Below are positions 12,603 to 24,398 of a stretch of DNA of 28,582 bases, piece after piece. The notes beneath the pieces are model-generated. The model saw nothing but the letters and a program-made list of their open reading frames with translations. It was not told the origin of the DNA and did not search any database. The DNA comes from a virus. How positions within the stretch are numbered: position 1 is the first letter of the stretch; each line of letters starts with the position of its first letter. The position numbers were made by a program, and so were the translations under genes. The stretch covers positions 1-28,582 of the IMG/VR virus record IMGVR_UViG_3300033148_002431; one strand, given 5' to 3'.

Positions 12603-15590
12603 CTAAAAAAATTCTAAAGTAGTAGTGGTTTGACCAGGGATTATCCTCAATCCACCATCTACATCCCCTATTACAAAAGTTTCAGTAGAGGTAGCTCTGC
12701 CATTCCATACTACACTGGCGGCCGTAGTTGTTGGAGTAATTGTATTGGCCTCAAATCCTGGGGTGGTGGTCGCTTCCCAAGATGCCCCATAATCTGTTCC
12801 ACTTGGCCAAGTAGCAATACAATCATCTCCTGTTAAGCAGAATTGTAGGGCTTCTATATTATTTGATCCGATAATGTCGTCTGGAAAGGTTGTAGTCGCA
12901 TTAGCAGTATTCAAATCTATTGTCATGTCGCCATCACCAGCAACTGTAAAAGAAGCTACGCTATCCCAATCATAACTTAACCTCAACTGTTCTGAAGTAT
13001 CTTCAACTTGAAGTATAACATCAGGCGTGGATGTTCCAATACCGATATTGCCATTAGCTGTTATAAAGAAATGGTCATTGCCTCCTGCTCTAAATATCAT
13101 CGAGTCAGCAGTATGCAAATATCTAATTTGACCTATTCTGCTGTCTCCTCCAGTTGTTACAGCATCTCCGAAAAAAAGATTAGACTGGGTATTGCCAAGG
13201 ATTGTCATACCCTTATTCGACAGTGAATCTCCAATCACAAGGTCGTCTGCGTCAGTTGATACATTTAAACTTTTAACACTAAAACCTGCCCTGCCATCCC
13301 CTTGTACTATAAAATCTTGATTGCCAGCAGAATCTACGGTTACTATGGATGGTATTACACCATCTCCTTCTACTGCTAAAGTAGCGTAAGGTGAGGTAGT
13401 AGCTACACCTACCCTGCCTTGCCCTGTTACAGTTAATCCTTCTGCCATTGTCCCTTCTGTAAGTTGTGTTTTATTTGATGAGGCGGCTATGGTTAATAAA
13501 CTAAAACTTCCAGTCGGGTCATTGGTTACTTGTATCCGAGAAGTATAAAAATTAGTTCCTCCATCCCATTTACCCTGTTCAAAGATAGGGACAGCTGACT
13601 TGTCATAGAACATATTTCTACCACCCCAGATAGCATTTGATTGGCCAACTATATCCAAGACCGCTAGCGGAGTAGTAGTACCTATGCCTATATTACCATT
13701 ATCAGCAATAGTCAAAGCATCCCCAGCCACTTCTCCATGAAGACTTACATACCCGAAATTACTAGCTTCATTGTATCCAAGAACTACCCCATCATTAGTC
13801 GCCAATCCAACTCCAACTGATATAAAGACCGCGTCATCAGGATCTGCGTTAACATTTAAAAAGTCAGCTATCCTAACTTCTCCGTCAGTATCCACTTCCA
13901 CTTGTAATTGCGTAGTAGGTGTTTGCGTCCCAATGCCGACATTTCCATCTTTGACATATAAAGTAGCGTCAGCAGAAAAGTGAGCAGTAGTCGTTGCGCT
14001 TGTTACTGTTAAATCTCCGTTAGAGCCTAAGATGGCATCATCAATCCATTCAGTAAGTTCTGTATGTTCAACTGTATTTAAGTGAAAATACTGGTCTGCA
14101 GTTCCACCTTGCAACCCAGATAATTCATTATGAACTGATGCTCCGCTAGATGTGAACTGGGTATCATAGGCTGATTGCACATCATTAAAATTAGTCTCAT
14201 CTTTTTGGATAAGTATTTTAGCTGCTAAAAATCCTAAATCTGCCACATGATCTGGCAAAGAAGATGGAGGTTGAGCCGCTTCTGCTTGCAACAAAGTATA
14301 ATCTCCCTGTCCCATAACTACCATAATTATACCGTCTGTATCACCATCAATGTAAACCCAGTGAACACCCCATCTATTAGGTGTAAGCTCAACTGAACCT
14401 TCTGTTATATCATTATAATAAATATTAGTAACTGTACTAGAGGCAAACTCTTCCCAAGCTGACCCTGTATAAATATAAGATTCATAAGTATCAGCGCCTG
14501 AAGTGTCTTGTGGATCAGTAGTTATTCTAGTTAATCCAGCCCAAAGTACACCAGCAGTAGATTCTAAATTACGAGTTCCAGATTCGCTAATAACTGCTCC
14601 TGAAGCCCTAACAACTTCTCCAAACACTTGAGTAACATATCCTAAAGTATTTTTAGGCACTTCAGCAATATTCATTCCAGCTGGAACCATGTGTAATGTA
14701 TTTCCTTCTCTAAAAACTTTTCCTAACAATATTCCATTTCTATTATTAACTGTTGATTTATCTATGGTAGCGTGAATTGAAGGATCACCTCCATTGTAAT
14801 CTACATGGATATAACTTGTTGATCCATCCACTAATTCTAAAGTAGTTGTGGCCGTCCAGTCCATCCACATAGCAGAGCTAGTAGCTGTTGTACCTATTTT
14901 GATTATGCCCCTGCCCGCTGCTACTGTCATTTCACCATCTCCGTTACTTGAAAATTCTCCACCATCTATCTTGCCAGCTGATTGGGTGGTGTCGAACCAG
15001 TCCTGTAAAGAAGAGTAGGTTGTATCATTTATGGTTGCGAGGTTATCTAATTCGCCGGCTATATAGAATGAACCAGTAGTTGAGGCACTGCCTTGGAAAT
15101 CGCCATCACCTATAAAAGTAAAATCTCCATCAATCGTACTAGAAGCATTAACAAATATCCCCGCTGAAGTATTAGTTGGGGTTAAAACATTTATTGGTGA
15201 TTCTTGCCAGTTAGAAGAAAAAGAAGCCGATCCACTACAAGCTGATCCAGTCGAAGTTAATAAACCATCAGCATCATATTGCGCACATCCTGATCCTTCG
15301 TCTATCATGGCGAACGAACCTTTTAATTCCAAGGTAGCATTAGTAGTAGTAGAAGTTGTGCCATCACCTACTATAAGTGTTTGCAAAGTTGAGGTTAATG
15401 ATCTTATCAATTTTTTATTTCTTTCATTCACCCATTCTCTTGTAGTACTTCTGGCTCCTAATATCTCATCCCCTTCCAACATTTCTTCATCTAATATAAG
15501 TCTAACAGGAATCTCAAGAGCCTTGACTGTACCTATCACAGTCATTAATGCTATGGATATTATCCCTAATGTTAGCCAAAAACTCCTCAT
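12603..15590 (-). CDS. Tail-fibre / adhesin-like protein with signal peptide
   Basis: 995 residues, the longest complete protein here. Residues 1-25 are a signal peptide or anchor (MRSFWLTLGIISIALMTVIG, ending VKA). Residues about 40-480 are S/T/G-rich beta structure. Near 487-504 comes HNELSGLQGG with YFHL, a motif widespread in phage tail fibres. Four repeats of the type G-N-(V/I)-G-I-G-T-x-(T/S)-P follow near 548, 635, 727 and 849 (GNVGIGTQTP, GNIGIGTTTP, GRVGVATTSP, GNIGIGTSTP), each followed by a beta-strand LxV-type sequence, as in trimeric fibres with a C-terminal chaperone; no such S74-type chaperone domain is visible at the end. The combination of a fibre architecture and an export signal is odd. 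It is coupled to the lipoprotein gene (5-bp gap) and the coiled-coil protein gene (2-bp gap). Confidence 0.75.
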   Translation of the reverse strand: MRSFWLTLGIISIALMTVIGTVKALEIPVRLILDEEMLEGDEILGARSTTREWVNERNKKLIRSLTSTLQTLIVGDGTTSTTTNATLELKGSFAMIDEGSGCAQYDADGLLTSTGSACSGSASFSSNWQESPINVLTPTNTSAGIFVNASSTIDGDFTFIGDGDFQGSASTTGSFYIAGELDNLATINDTTYSSLQDWFDTTQSAGKIDGGEFSSNGDGEMTVAAGRGIIKIGTTATSSAMWMDWTATTTLELVDGSTSYIHVDYNGGDPSIHATIDKSTVNNRNGILLGKVFREGNTLHMVPAGMNIAEVPKNTLGYVTQVFGEVVRASGAVISESGTRNLESTAGVLWAGLTRITTDPQDTSGADTYESYIYTGSAWEEFASSTVTNIYYNDITEGSVELTPNRWGVHWVYIDGDTDGIIMVVMGQGDYTLLQAEAAQPPSSLPDHVADLGFLAAKILIQKDETNFNDVQSAYDTQFTSSGASVHNELSGLQGGTADQYFHLNTVEHTELTEWIDDAILGSNGDLTVTSATTTAHFSADATLYVKDGNVGIGTQTPTTQLQVEVDTDGEVRIADFLNVNADPDDAVFISVGVGLATNDGVVLGYNEASNFGYVSLHGEVAGDALTIADNGNIGIGTTTPLAVLDIVGQSNAIWGGRNMFYDKSAVPIFEQGKWDGGTNFYTSRIQVTNDPTGSFSLLTIAASSNKTQLTEGTMAEGLTVTGQGRVGVATTSPYATLAVEGDGVIPSIVTVDSAGNQDFIVQGDGRAGFSVKSLNVSTDADDLVIGDSLSNKGMTILGNTQSNLFFGDAVTTGGDSRIGQIRYLHTADSMIFRAGGNDHFFITANGNIGIGTSTPDVILQVEDTSEQLRLSYDWDSVASFTVAGDGDMTIDLNTANATTTFPDDIIGSNNIEALQFCLTGDDCIATWPSGTDYGASWEATTTPGFEANTITPTTTAASVVWNGRATSTETFVIGDVDGGLRIIPGQTTTTLEFF

Positions 15591-16644: not shown

Positions 16645-17340
16645 TTATCTAGTGTGGCAGTTCGCATATACAGCACCGACCATAGAAGAATAGCAAGTAG
16701 AAGATGCACTGTCTCCAACCCCACCAATAGTAGGATTGTCAAATGCACCTAAAAGATATTCGTCAGTCTTCCATAACCAACTATCTTGGGTATTAGTACC
16801 AGTATTGTCTGTATCATTCCATAAAGCTGTAGTAGTCGTAGGCAAAGTAGAAGAAGCAATTATAGCACCTCCACTCGCTGACCATGCGGTAGCAGAAGTA
16901 GATGTTCCTACATTAAATTGCATTCCGCAAGAATTCCCTGACGAATTAGTATTTACTTCCAATTCAAGTCCTTGGCAAATTCTATCTTCACCAGTATTTT
17001 GAATTGCGAATAATCCACCAGGAGTAGTAGTCGCACCAGCTGTTACAGTCAAAGATGCACTTGATTCACTCCCGTAAGTTATTATTCCTAAGGTAGCAAT
17101 TTCATCAACGACTAAGTCATTGGTAATATGCACATCAGTAAAAGTAGTTGGAGAAGCAATATAAGCACCTAATTGCCCAATAGCGTCAGACACTACTGGG
17201 GCAGGAGCTTCAATATAGTCTCCTTCCACAACAACTTTCGGAGCTTCTTGCCCGAGGTAAGCCTTAATATTGCCGATATTAGTACCGACAATAGCTATAG
17301 CCATGATAACCACCAATGCAATTATATTTCGTTTGTTCAT
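16645..17340 (-). CDS. Exported S/T-rich protein, unknown
   Basis: 231 residues. An N-terminal signal or anchor (MNKRNIIALVVIMAIAIVGT) is followed by GNIKAYLGQEAP. The mature part is S/T/G-rich (TVTAGATTTPGGLF, IIASSTLPTTTTALWND) and has several Cys (ICQG, NSCGMQ, STCYSS, ANCHTR) that could form disulfides outside the cytoplasm. The stop at 16645 is followed by a hairpin. The composition resembles the fibre-like proteins downstream. It lies two bases after the KE-rich gene that follows the capsid gene, so it should be made together with virion proteins. No family is recognised. Confidence 0.6.
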   Translation of the reverse strand: MNKRNIIALVVIMAIAIVGTNIGNIKAYLGQEAPKVVVEGDYIEAPAPVVSDAIGQLGAYIASPTTFTDVHITNDLVVDEIATLGIITYGSESSASLTVTAGATTTPGGLFAIQNTGEDRICQGLELEVNTNSSGNSCGMQFNVGTSTSATAWSASGGAIIASSTLPTTTTALWNDTDNTGTNTQDSWLWKTDEYLLGAFDNPTIGGVGDSASSTCYSSMVGAVYANCHTR

Positions 17341-17853: not shown

Positions 17854-18837
17854 TTAGCTAGTATAGCTTTGACCATCGCCCTTAGTTGCCCATGTACCTC
17901 TCCAATCGGAGTGTCCAGCAGCCATTCTAAAGTCGATCGAGAAGACCCTATTCTGGGTTTTACTGTCAATTGAGGTATTAAATTCTGGCTCTTGACGAAG
18001 ATACACTTTCAATTTAGAGAAAGCATTATCCACTAGATACCAAGCAGTAGCTGAACCGCCATTGGTTGAGTTCAACCATCTGGAAGTTACAACATCAATG
18101 CGCCCTTCATAGAAGTTCACATCGTTGTTAGCTGTAGTTGGTCTAAGCGGAGTATTCGCAAATATTACTGCGTCTTTTTCCAAATCATCAGGTACGACCA
18201 ATGTTGCTTTCCCCATAAACTCCATTGGCAAACCTCTATCAGTCAACTGTTTGACCAAAGCCAAACGACCTGTTTCAAGGTTTAATTCTGTCAAAGTGAT
18301 ACCTGTACCAGAGGCATTACTTTGGGCTGTACCCCCATCTTTTCTAGGATGAGAGACTGAGAACAACGCTTTCGTATCATTCATACGATACAGCGTATAG
18401 TTGTTATTCGTAACAGCAGTCGTAAAACCACCATTAAGAATATTCATTGAGTACTTAGCTTTGGTCATTCTAGCTGTAATAGCAGCTAAACGAAAACTGT
18501 CCAACTCTTTTTGATAATCAGTATCTCTAAGCCTATTTTTAGTAACCTCAATAGTCTTCGTTAAATCTTTGATTGTATAGACTGTTTCATAAGTTACTAA
18601 ATTAGAGTCCTGATCATAAGCATCGCCTTCATTCGTTTCATTATACAAACCAAGACCAGCTGTCCCAATATCTCTAATGATAGAATCATTTGTGCTAATC
18701 ACATTCATAACTCTACCGACTGGTTCCATACTATCGTATAGTTCCAATGATTGATCAAACACATCAGCAAACTTAGCAATCGCTCCTCTTTGGGCTAAAT
18801 CACCAAATACTGCTCGTGTTTCAACTAATTGTTGCAT
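17854..18837 (-). CDS. Major capsid protein, Mu gpT-like
   Basis: 327 residues. The N-terminus (MQQLVETRAVFGDLAQRGAI) is helical, followed by an E-loop-like region (YNETNEGDAYDQDSNLVTYE). ALFSVSHPRKDGGTAQSN near 158-175 is characteristic of the Mu-like head subunit gpT family, where an L-F-S-x-x-H-P segment is conserved. The DLEKDAVIFANTPLRPTT and VVTSRWLNS stretches and the final DWRGTWATKG complete an HK97-type fold. It has no signal peptide. The order scaffold-like, decoration-like, capsid is the usual one for a head module. The leader is AT-rich (taattatcaattaatac) and shows no Shine-Dalgarno, notable for what should be the most highly made protein. Confidence 0.85.
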   Translation of the reverse strand: MQQLVETRAVFGDLAQRGAIAKFADVFDQSLELYDSMEPVGRVMNVISTNDSIIRDIGTAGLGLYNETNEGDAYDQDSNLVTYETVYTIKDLTKTIEVTKNRLRDTDYQKELDSFRLAAITARMTKAKYSMNILNGGFTTAVTNNNYTLYRMNDTKALFSVSHPRKDGGTAQSNASGTGITLTELNLETGRLALVKQLTDRGLPMEFMGKATLVVPDDLEKDAVIFANTPLRPTTANNDVNFYEGRIDVVTSRWLNSTNGGSATAWYLVDNAFSKLKVYLRQEPEFNTSIDSKTQNRVFSIDFRMAAGHSDWRGTWATKGDGQSYTS

Positions 18838-19432: not shown

Positions 19433-20200
19433 TTAAATGTCATAGCCCTTTTCACGCAACACTTTTATCCTATCGGGATTAATTCCACTAGCATTTGCTA
19501 TGGATTTATCCTCGTCAGTAGTTGTGTTAGGTTGGGCTAAAGGTTTACGAATAGTTCTCGTAGAACCTATATCAGCCGGAACCCCAACTTCTTGAGTATC
19601 GTCTACTTCGGGTTGTTGTTGTTTTGACTTAAAGTCAATAAATTCCAACCCGTCTTTGACCATCTCATGGATAGACTTGCGAGCAATATACTTATTCTTA
19701 TTCATTGATTCTTTGAGCAAAGAGCTTTCAGAAGCCTTTATATGCTTCTGAAACGACTCAAACTGTTCATCATCGAGGCTTTTAATCCTCTCATCATAAT
19801 CAGCTAAAGCGTCAGCTCTTTTAGATTTGTAATCGGTTTTAATGTTATCAGCGTCATCGCCAACATCATCGCCATCATTATAAATATCATTCACAGAAGT
19901 ATCATCTCCTATGTCTGATAATGATTTCATCCGATTACTATCCTTCAATCTCTTTAAATCTTCTTGAGCAATCTTTTTATCCATCTCTGCTTGCTTTGCT
20001 TGCTCTTCAAGTTCTATCTCTCGTTGAGTTTTCTCTGGCTGTTCTTCTTTGCCTGTGTCTGTTTCAGGGTTAGGATTCGACTTGTCTTCCTCCTTAACAG
20101 GTTGTACAGGCTCAGGTTTTTTATCGTCAGCAGGAACTTGCTCTGACTTCTCAACCTTGGGTTGAGTATTAGATTCCTCTTTTTTGTCCTCGTTTGTCAT
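19433..20200 (-). CDS. Probable scaffold protein
   Basis: 255 residues from ATG at 20200 (MTNEDKKEESNTQPKVEK). An in-frame TTG at 20245 would extend it into the structured element and is less likely. Residues 1-75 are Pro/Glu/Lys-rich and disordered. Residues 75-110 form charged helix (LEEQAKQAEMDKKIAQEDLK), followed by an acidic patch (DGDDVGDDADN). Residues 140-210 are helical (ADALADYDERIKSLDDEQFE). The basic C-terminal end (NPDRIKVLREKGYDI) is typical of scaffold proteins, which bind the capsid shell through a basic helix. The position between the portal block and the decoration and capsid genes supports this. Confidence 0.6.
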   Translation of the reverse strand: MTNEDKKEESNTQPKVEKSEQVPADDKKPEPVQPVKEEDKSNPNPETDTGKEEQPEKTQREIELEEQAKQAEMDKKIAQEDLKRLKDSNRMKSLSDIGDDTSVNDIYNDGDDVGDDADNIKTDYKSKRADALADYDERIKSLDDEQFESFQKHIKASESSLLKESMNKNKYIARKSIHEMVKDGLEFIDFKSKQQQPEVDDTQEVGVPADIGSTRTIRKPLAQPNTTTDEDKSIANASGINPDRIKVLREKGYDI

Positions 20201-20249: not shown

Positions 20250-20366
20250 TATAAACACAAACAGGAGCGTCATTTAAGACGCTCCTATCTGGAACATTTA
20301 GCCCACGGGGAGTGAGACTTAATGAACCAGATAGGAACACCCTATCTGACTCCCCGTGTGTTTATA
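20250..20366 (-). ncRNA. Structured intergenic element, predicted three-way junction RNA
   Basis: A 117-bp block between two genes folds almost completely. P1: tataaacaca (20250-20259) with tgtgtttata (20357-20366), 10 bp. P2: cacggggagt (20304-20313) with actccccgtg (20349-20358), 10 bp, sharing two bases with P1. P2 is capped by cagatagg (20328-20335) with cctatctg (20341-20348), loop aacac. P3: aggagcgtc (20263-20271) with gacgctcct (20278-20286), loop atttaa. A second cctatctgg (20284-20292) can pair with ccagatagg (20327-20335), which would open P3's base and compete with the P2 cap. No reading frame is needed to explain the block. It could be a stable RNA, an attenuator or a processing site. 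The strand is assumed from the operon. Confidence 0.55.
20263..20286 (-). terminator. Possible intrinsic terminator or attenuator hairpin within the structured element
   Basis: A perfect 9-bp GC-rich stem (aggagcgtc / gacgctcct) with a six-base loop. Read leftward it is followed by a U-rich tract (tgtttgtgtttata). It lies upstream of the scaffold gene and so could lower or tune transcription into the head genes. The tract is not a pure U-run, and alternative pairing with the neighbouring ccagatagg arm could switch it. Confidence 0.4.
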
Positions 20367-23082: not shown

Positions 23083-23670
23083 TTATTTTAAATTTGAAAA
23101 CACTCCATAATGATCACCTACTATATCTGAATCCACATAGACCCTGAACCCTGCTTTTCTTATAGCCTCACAGAACTGCCAATCACCGTCTTGCTCTCCA
23201 TTTTGTGGTCTGAAGTACGGGTACTCTAGTTTCTCGAATACTTCTCTTTTAATAACACTCATACCCATACAGAATATATCCACTTCATTCAATCCATCTT
23301 GCAATATACCAGGAGTTTTACCGCTTGCGTCCTTAATGCATATCATCCTTTGCATATCATCCTTTGCATAATACAACCCACTAATAGCGTCCTTATCCTG
23401 TATTATGAGCTTCTTAATAGCATCAGGCGGAGGTACTACATCCCAGTCAACAAAGACTAGATGGGTGGCGTCAGTCTCCTTAATGGCTGTACTTGCCAAC
23501 TTATTTCTCTGATTAGCCGTTGAATCGCTAGTACCAGTAGTTGAGGCTTCAGGTGCTAAGTAATATTTAAATGATCTATTCAACGCTTCACCTACTAACC
23601 ACTTATGATGTCCTGTGTATATCCAAGGCATTCCACATATTTCTAAGTATATTGGTTTTATTACTTGCAT
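23083..23670 (-). CDS. GT-A-fold glycosyltransferase-like protein
   Basis: 195 residues beginning MQVIKPIYLEICGMPWIYTG. Residues 55-80 hold ANQRNKLASTAI and the motif VFVDWDVVPPPDA with D75-x-D77, the metal and nucleotide-sugar binding signature of GT-A (family 2-like) enzymes. Later come NEVDIFCMGMSVIKREVFEK, the acceptor-side NGEQDGDWQFCEAIRKAGF and VDSDIVGDHYG with a conserved His. It is short for a full glycosyltransferase (usually 220-300 residues) but keeps the key motifs. It lies between the large terminase and the portal gene. It may glycosylate a virion protein or the host surface. It overlaps the preceding small gene by 68 bp. Confidence 0.75.
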   Translation of the reverse strand: MQVIKPIYLEICGMPWIYTGHHKWLVGEALNRSFKYYLAPEASTTGTSDSTANQRNKLASTAIKETDATHLVFVDWDVVPPPDAIKKLIIQDKDAISGLYYAKDDMQRMICIKDASGKTPGILQDGLNEVDIFCMGMSVIKREVFEKLEYPYFRPQNGEQDGDWQFCEAIRKAGFRVYVDSDIVGDHYGVFSNLK

Positions 23671-23861: not shown

Positions 23862-24398
23862 TTATCTTGATATTTCTTGCACGCTTACCCATTTAGCCCA
23901 AAGACTACCAGCACCATCAAGAGTTTTACAGGATACTTTTGCGTACTTTGACCCTTCTACAAAATCAAACACAATAGTAGTGGTTGCTTCATTAAGAGTA
24001 TCAATTGCGTATAAATATTCTTTTGGCCAATTATCAATTGTAGTTGTAGGGATACTATAATTCTGCGCTCCCTCTTCATACCAATATGTTCTATCTTCAT
24101 CCCAAGCATACTCTACCTTGCAAACTAAGGTTGAATCGATAGATGTGCCTCTATAGCCTACAAAAGCTGTTGCACTTTTAAGTCCTTCAATCCTTTGAGG
24201 AGTTGATGAGGCTGTACCTCCACCAGTGTATCCACCAGCCATAGTCTGATAAGAATCAGCACTACCAAGCAAGTCAATTCCTGCTTGAGGTCTAAAGGCT
24301 GAACCAATACCTTTATTATTATTTAGTTCATAAGTTAATAACCCAGCTAAAGCTACGACTATAATAACTATTGGGATAACAATCACTTTATGTTTCAT
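23862..24398 (-). CDS. Exported or anchored protein between terminase and portal genes
   Basis: 178 residues. N-terminal hydrophobic signal or anchor (MKHKVIVIPIVIIVVALAGL) without an obvious cleavage site. A G/S/T-rich stretch (GGYTGGGTASSTPQR) follows, then a beta domain with two Cys (VCKVEYAWDEDRTYWYEE, AKVSCKTLDGAG) and an end LWAKWVSVQEISR. The position, inside the packaging block between the large terminase and portal genes, is unexpected for an envelope protein. Function not recognised. Start at 24398 is preceded by an AT-rich leader (attaattaataagaac). Confidence 0.6.
   Translation of the reverse strand: MKHKVIVIPIVIIVVALAGLLTYELNNNKGIGSAFRPQAGIDLLGSADSYQTMAGGYTGGGTASSTPQRIEGLKSATAFVGYRGTSIDSTLVCKVEYAWDEDRTYWYEEGAQNYSIPTTTIDNWPKEYLYAIDTLNEATTTIVFDFVEGSKYAKVSCKTLDGAGSLWAKWVSVQEISR

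Follow-up and report, generated by a model that had tools for sequence, protein, structure and literature searches.

The φ29 pRNA is a structured phage RNA encoded near packaging genes, and the preQ1-I riboswitch combines a stem of about 5 bp, a short second helix and an A-rich third loop beside a translation start. The RNA considered here is likewise a structured phage RNA close to packaging genes. Unlike pRNA, however, its form in relatives is an mRNA leader directly before a scaffold-like gene, and neither a separate transcript nor interlocking loops are in evidence. The tandem motif that ends this leader in a sister clade resembles preQ1-I in stem size, short second helix, A-rich third loop and proximity to the start codon, but its loops of six nucleotides leave no room for a ligand pocket, it has no Rfam match and it does not lie upstream of queuosine genes. 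With intrinsic terminators and attenuators the locus shares a hairpin (P3) with a U-rich tail and mutually exclusive upstream pairing; in contrast to them, the U-tract of P3 is interrupted and the family equivalents mostly lack one.

The gene 32 leader of T4 and RB69 offers a further comparison: gp32 of T4 represses its own synthesis via a pseudoknot leader, an autogenous translational operator (PMC535899). There, as here, an H-type pseudoknot and, after it, an A/U-rich unstructured stretch precede the AUG of a phage gene, and the sequence has diverged between relatives while the structure is kept (PMC535899). Here, by contrast, the downstream genes are the scaffold-capsid operon, and the sister clade carries two pseudoknots built from abutting hairpins, whereas the window has at most one, weakly supported. 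A leader pseudoknot of this type is supported by covariation in the sister clade, while the corresponding pairing in the window is weak (p 0.01-0.03, for a group of eight). The STAXI motif also arranges pseudoknot units in tandem (Weinberg 2010, PMC2864571). Its units are found near single-strand binding, topoisomerase and antirestriction genes (PMC2864571), unlike the tandem motif, which precedes a scaffold-like gene and has no Rfam match at the gathering score or at E <= 1. We consider the element, with moderate confidence, to be the 5′ leader of the scaffold-capsid operon on the minus strand, probably acting at the RNA level.

The folded element and its surroundings

The window is the full 28,582-nt record IMGVR_UViG_3300033148_002431, and coordinates refer to this whole stretch. 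The element is located between the small genes that follow the portal gene and a scaffold-like gene. Because all surrounding genes are on the minus strand, this is the strand on which the RNA is to be judged. The genes needed for orientation are:

17854-18837, minus strand: major capsid protein (PF25209 Phage_capsid_4, Mu gpT-like), used as query for relatives
19433-20200, minus strand: scaffold-like gene, without family match, named from position and composition; homologue in relative L013
20384-20830, minus strand: 148-aa gene upstream of the gap; homologue in L013
21129-23078, minus strand: putative portal protein, assigned from position; homologues in relatives

For the scaffold-like gene, ATG 20200 was taken as the start, not the mechanically listed TTG 20245. 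The terminase of the window matches phage terminases at ~30%. A glycosyltransferase-like gene (23083-23670, minus strand; phrog_12406, E 1e-7) lies between terminase and portal. Three Thr/Ser-rich proteins of the structural region (23862-24398, 16645-17340 and 12603-15590, minus strand) carry a hydrophobic, membrane-anchor-like N-terminal segment, and the 995-aa protein among them contains repeated GIGTxTP motifs. Such proteins are unusual among virion genes and may hint at the host.

Within the gap, the following parts are distinguished:

20250-20366, minus strand: the flagged element, a 117-nt strongly folding RNA, as a rod (-59.1 kcal/mol) or a three-way junction (-49.0 kcal/mol)
20357-20366, minus strand: P1 5′ arm TATAAACACA, exact complement of 20250-20259
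20250-20259, minus strand: P1 3′ arm TGTGTTTATA, also within the U-rich stretch after P3
20304-20358, minus strand: P2, CACGGGGAGT...ACTCCCCGTG, enclosing the hairpin CAGATAGG-GTGTT-CCTATCTG (20348-20328); not alignable with L013
20280-20291, minus strand: switch segment CAGATAGGAGCG, with partners upstream (20339-20328, rod) or downstream (20269-20258, P3)
20263-20286, minus strand: P3, terminator-like hairpin AGGAGCGTC-TTAAAT-GACGCTCCT, then GTTTGTGTTTATA; conserved in L013
20215-20249, minus strand: start-proximal hairpin with conserved TTTGGTC loop and ATAAAGACTC, from the alignment with L013

A sequence-only reading had described the element as a three-way junction whose repeats allow an alternative fold that opens the terminator-like hairpin. 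The repeats it named are all present: the outer 10-bp arms (20250-20259/20357-20366, 100% complementary) and the pairs CACGGGGAGT/ACTCCCCGTG, CAGATAGG/CCTATCTG and AGGAGCGTC/GACGCTCCT. Both strands fold far more stably than dinucleotide-shuffled controls (z about -8), with -50.0 kcal/mol on the plus strand (z -8.7) and -59.1 kcal/mol on the minus strand (z -8.3), and 0/200 shuffles as good in either case. The three-way junction is the best fold on the plus strand only. On the gene-bearing minus strand the rod wins (-59.1 vs -49.0 kcal/mol), and this deficit in stability on the transcribed strand led to the junction being dropped as the functional fold. The rod pairs the cctatctgg and ccagatagg copies and thereby opens P3; the alternative fold exists and is the more stable one on this strand. 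At its center is the 12-nt segment 20291-20280, whose partners in the rod (20339-20328) and in P3 (20269-20258) are mutually exclusive, a triple pairing reached by 0/40 shuffles (p about 0.02). As a conserved bistable switch this arrangement was abandoned: strong in the window, it is not a feature of the family (median p 0.34).

The start-proximal region can fold in two ways: as a nested hairpin, in which GGTCTT (20249-20244) pairs with AAGACT (20220-20215), or as a pseudoknot between GGTCT (20233-20229) and AGACT (20219-20215). The latter loop-tail pairing reaches p 0.01-0.03 for a group of eight, and the nested hairpin competes with it; the window has one hairpin here, to which a weak pseudoknot pairing may be added. 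The element occurs once in the record, and an identical copy sits in each of two other contigs that hold this virus. A DNA search of 50,697 phage records returned no match, and Rfam 15 gave 0 matches above the gathering threshold, with weak chance matches only.

Relatives and the tandem leader of the sister clade

Relatives were collected by terminase and capsid alignments. Their gene order is portal, small gene(s), gap, scaffold-like gene, g181 homologue and capsid, and in nearly all relatives with this order the position of the gap before the scaffold-like gene is conserved; the gap is usually structured. No relative turned up when 84,980 species genomes were scanned with terminase and capsid, the portal protein had no match among the phage records, and a portal-pair scan for closer relatives returned already known contigs only. 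Among the collections searched, L013 is the only relative alignable in the gap (the gap of L138 is identical to that of L013). It shares 54% identity with the window in terminase, about 50% in portal and 59% in capsid. Over its 3′ half, which stretches from P3 as far as the start codon, the gap aligns with a score of 51 against a shuffle maximum of 33 (0/1000). When the P3 stems are compared (GGAGCGTC/GACGCTCC vs GGTGTCGC/GCGGCACC), three of the 8 pairs are changed on both sides in a compensatory way and one is a G-U; in L013 the hairpin is followed by TTTTGTGT. In the start-proximal hairpin, both have the loop TTTGGTC and the stretch ATAAAG(G)ACTC. The 5′ half, with P1 and P2, is not alignable even with this closest relative (240/1000 shuffles as good), so the exact P1/P2 fold may not be under selection. 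This counts against the leader reading and leaves a conserved three-way junction unsupported. Also counted against the leader reading are the restriction to one alignable relative and L170, a single-hairpin-clade relative with the same gene order and 11 nt before the scaffold-like gene (L170:5608-5619), in which the leader has been lost or was never present.

Another 35 loci (including L102, L148 and L152-L208; example L184:5662-5704) share a motif at the end of the gap, invariably ahead of the scaffold-like gene: two hairpins abut, with GGACUCAACC-like loops, and after them come an A-rich stretch and two AAGGGA-like strands. Across the 35 loci, loop B pairs with strand 1 (permutation p = 0.0001; 0.016 for distinct combinations only) and loop A with strand 2 (p = 0.016; 0.037), values in which the relatedness of loci is only partly corrected for; strand 2 was chosen by a rule that may be wrong in a few loci. 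The swapped loop-strand pairings, used as controls on the same loci, gave p = 0.86 and 0.77. Examples of covariation are loop B GCAU with GUGU, vs ACUC with GGGA in others; loop A GCCU with AGGU in L178; and, in L155, loop A UCCC with GGGA and loop B UCCU with AGGA. In a composite alignment of 46 columns, with linkers replaced by AAA, 88.9% of cells pair vs 69.6% after shuffling, both partners vary in 13/18 pairs, and covariation scores 0.531 vs 0.154 shuffled, a signal destroyed by sliding the partners. Since the outermost (first) position of each pseudoknot is mostly unpaired, the helices effectively have about 3 bp. Mapped on the capsid tree, changes in loop B and strand 1 co-occur in 5/5 independent pairs on well-supported branches (sign-test floor p 0.0625 with 5 pairs) and in 7 pairs when all branches are counted.

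In this tree a single branch (100% SH-aLRT) unites the 36 capsid proteins of tandem-motif loci; the window and L013 are placed next to it but outside, beside single-hairpin relatives. A covariance model of the tandem double-pseudoknot scaffold leader (R1) matches all 36 tandem-clade leaders at E <= 2e-4 and, in 837 kb, nothing but leaders below E 0.1. Scanned with an exact pattern, the viral contigs yielded 43 stretches, of which both stems pair in 10. All 10 lie in the gap, placed either some 1.3 kb ahead of a related capsid gene or immediately behind a related portal gene, and the remaining stretches are unpaired chance matches. Scanning for GCA loops found four stem-forming loci in gap context, one of them new (L248), with a strand 1 that starts with GTG as predicted; a paired match in L243 lies outside the gap context and lacks the downstream strands. 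Compared with Rfam, the tandem motif and the relatives' leaders gave only a tRNA above gathering and no match at E <= 1. The motif, two hairpins with each loop tied to a downstream G-strand, is thus not in Rfam. Among the papers searched, none described a scaffold or capsid leader pseudoknot; a 2017 survey of 224 RNA motifs was covered through Rfam only. In placement the window agrees with these leaders (same strand, portal block on one side, scaffold-like gene on the other), but it does not match R1 at E <= 1, which counts against the leader reading, and lacks the two abutting hairpins (~5 bp, 6-nt loops, GGWCUCAACC-like).

Upstream of the tandem motif, 31/35 loci carry a -10 hexamer, 13 of these with a 6/6 TTGACA at 16-18 nt. 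The RNA between promoter and motif, tested where it is long enough (28 loci), folds with a median z of -3.9, and 25/28 lie below -2 despite differing sequences. One leader contains a tRNA gene in this stretch (L028:4754-4824, on the contig of L165); inserts are thus accepted in the 5′ part of tandem-clade leaders. No sigma70-like promoter was found in the window's own gap, which counts against the leader reading. Only in the sister clade is a leader shown that lies close to a promoter and ends, at the scaffold start, in a covarying double-pseudoknot module. The window itself has the structure, the place in the gene order, and the conservation of P3 and the start-proximal region with compensation in L013.

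None of the 22 window genes of >= 100 aa on the minus strand has a Shine-Dalgarno (SD)-like site (0/22); A/T-rich stretches such as TTAATTAATA lie ahead of their starts. SD-like sites occur before 10% of 395 genes in tandem-clade loci, vs 16% in random 17-mers, and before 0/28 tandem-clade capsid genes. L013/L138, with the same gene order, have SD sites before 6/9 genes. Because the genes of the window phage and the tandem clade lack such sites, simple SD masking by the tandem motif is unlikely and was dropped; nor are the G-strands general SD sites.

Proposed head-gene control and its alternatives

The leader fold, taken with the two-hairpin pseudoknot fold of the relatives, suggests RNA-level control of capsid production. 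Of the roles proposed from sequence, a structured RNA controlling head genes remains the best reading. It is backed by the gap position conserved in nearly all relatives with the gene order, by the sister clade (structured 5′ parts in 25/28, a promoter often upstream, a covarying motif without Rfam match) and by P3, kept with compensatory changes in the closest relative. No evidence was found for a packaging RNA.

We infer each functional step of the leader model. Transcripts from the packaging genes would read through into the gap, where the nascent RNA would fold into the long rod first; it is proposed that the rod forms first because its partners emerge earlier and it is the more stable fold. 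The rod would hold the weak terminator-like hairpin P3 open and may serve as the double-stranded 5′ border of the head-gene mRNA, as an RNase III-like cut site or as 5′ protection. The start-proximal hairpin would then tune initiation at the scaffold AUG. The net effect would be a head-protein output set separately from packaging-protein output, at the RNA level.

P3 and the exclusive pairing of the 12-nt segment could instead belong to an intrinsic terminator or attenuator between packaging and head genes, in which P3 ends some transcripts and the rod is the antiterminator. The scan of 1.3 kb returned P3 as its sole terminator-like site (1 found, 0.4 expected), and in L013 the hairpin is conserved with compensatory changes and followed by TTTTGTGT. 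However, its T-tract in the window, GTTTGTGTTTATA, is weak and interrupted, which also counts against the leader reading, and the sister-clade equivalents are short hairpins downstream of the promoter, mostly without T-tracts. A terminator before highly needed head genes would moreover require a regulator or promoter, and none was found; we regard this reading as possible but rather doubtful. Similarly tentative is a translational operator, in which a self-repressing head protein would bind the start-proximal hairpin or pseudoknot by analogy with T4 gp32. Covarying pseudoknots stand directly before the scaffold start in 35 loci and nowhere else by pattern or model, and loop letters are conserved beyond pairing, with TTTGGTC common to the window and L013. 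The window, though, is without the tandem form, and its single pseudoknot is weak (p 0.01-0.03, group of eight).

A processing site of RNase III type, dividing packaging from head messages, would account for a long, near-perfect double-stranded rod on the transcribed strand and for a gap without a promoter in the window. This is unlikely, given that the sister-clade rods lie just after promoters, where a cut is unneeded, and that the rod sequence is not conserved. It is quite unlikely that the scaffold-capsid leaders of this phage group represent a new class of translation-controlling RNA, whose double or single pseudoknot at the head-operon start would recruit or gate SD-independent ribosomes, with the rod and single hairpin of the window as a diverged form. 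A DNA-level palindrome or mobile repeat (MITE-like), which the inverted terminal arms and nested palindromes might suggest, is very improbable: the element is present in a single copy in the record, with no DNA match in the 50,697 phage records and no relative at other positions, no target duplication flanks its arms, and P3 shows compensatory changes relative to L013.

Structured leaders of phage head operons have rarely been described, and the comparative data point to one. This probable leader is conserved in place across a large group of uncultivated phages, one clade of which carries a covarying RNA with two hairpins and two pseudoknots. If it does control the scaffold-to-capsid ratio, it would be a concrete, testable case of capsid assembly controlled at the RNA level in phages without Shine-Dalgarno sites.
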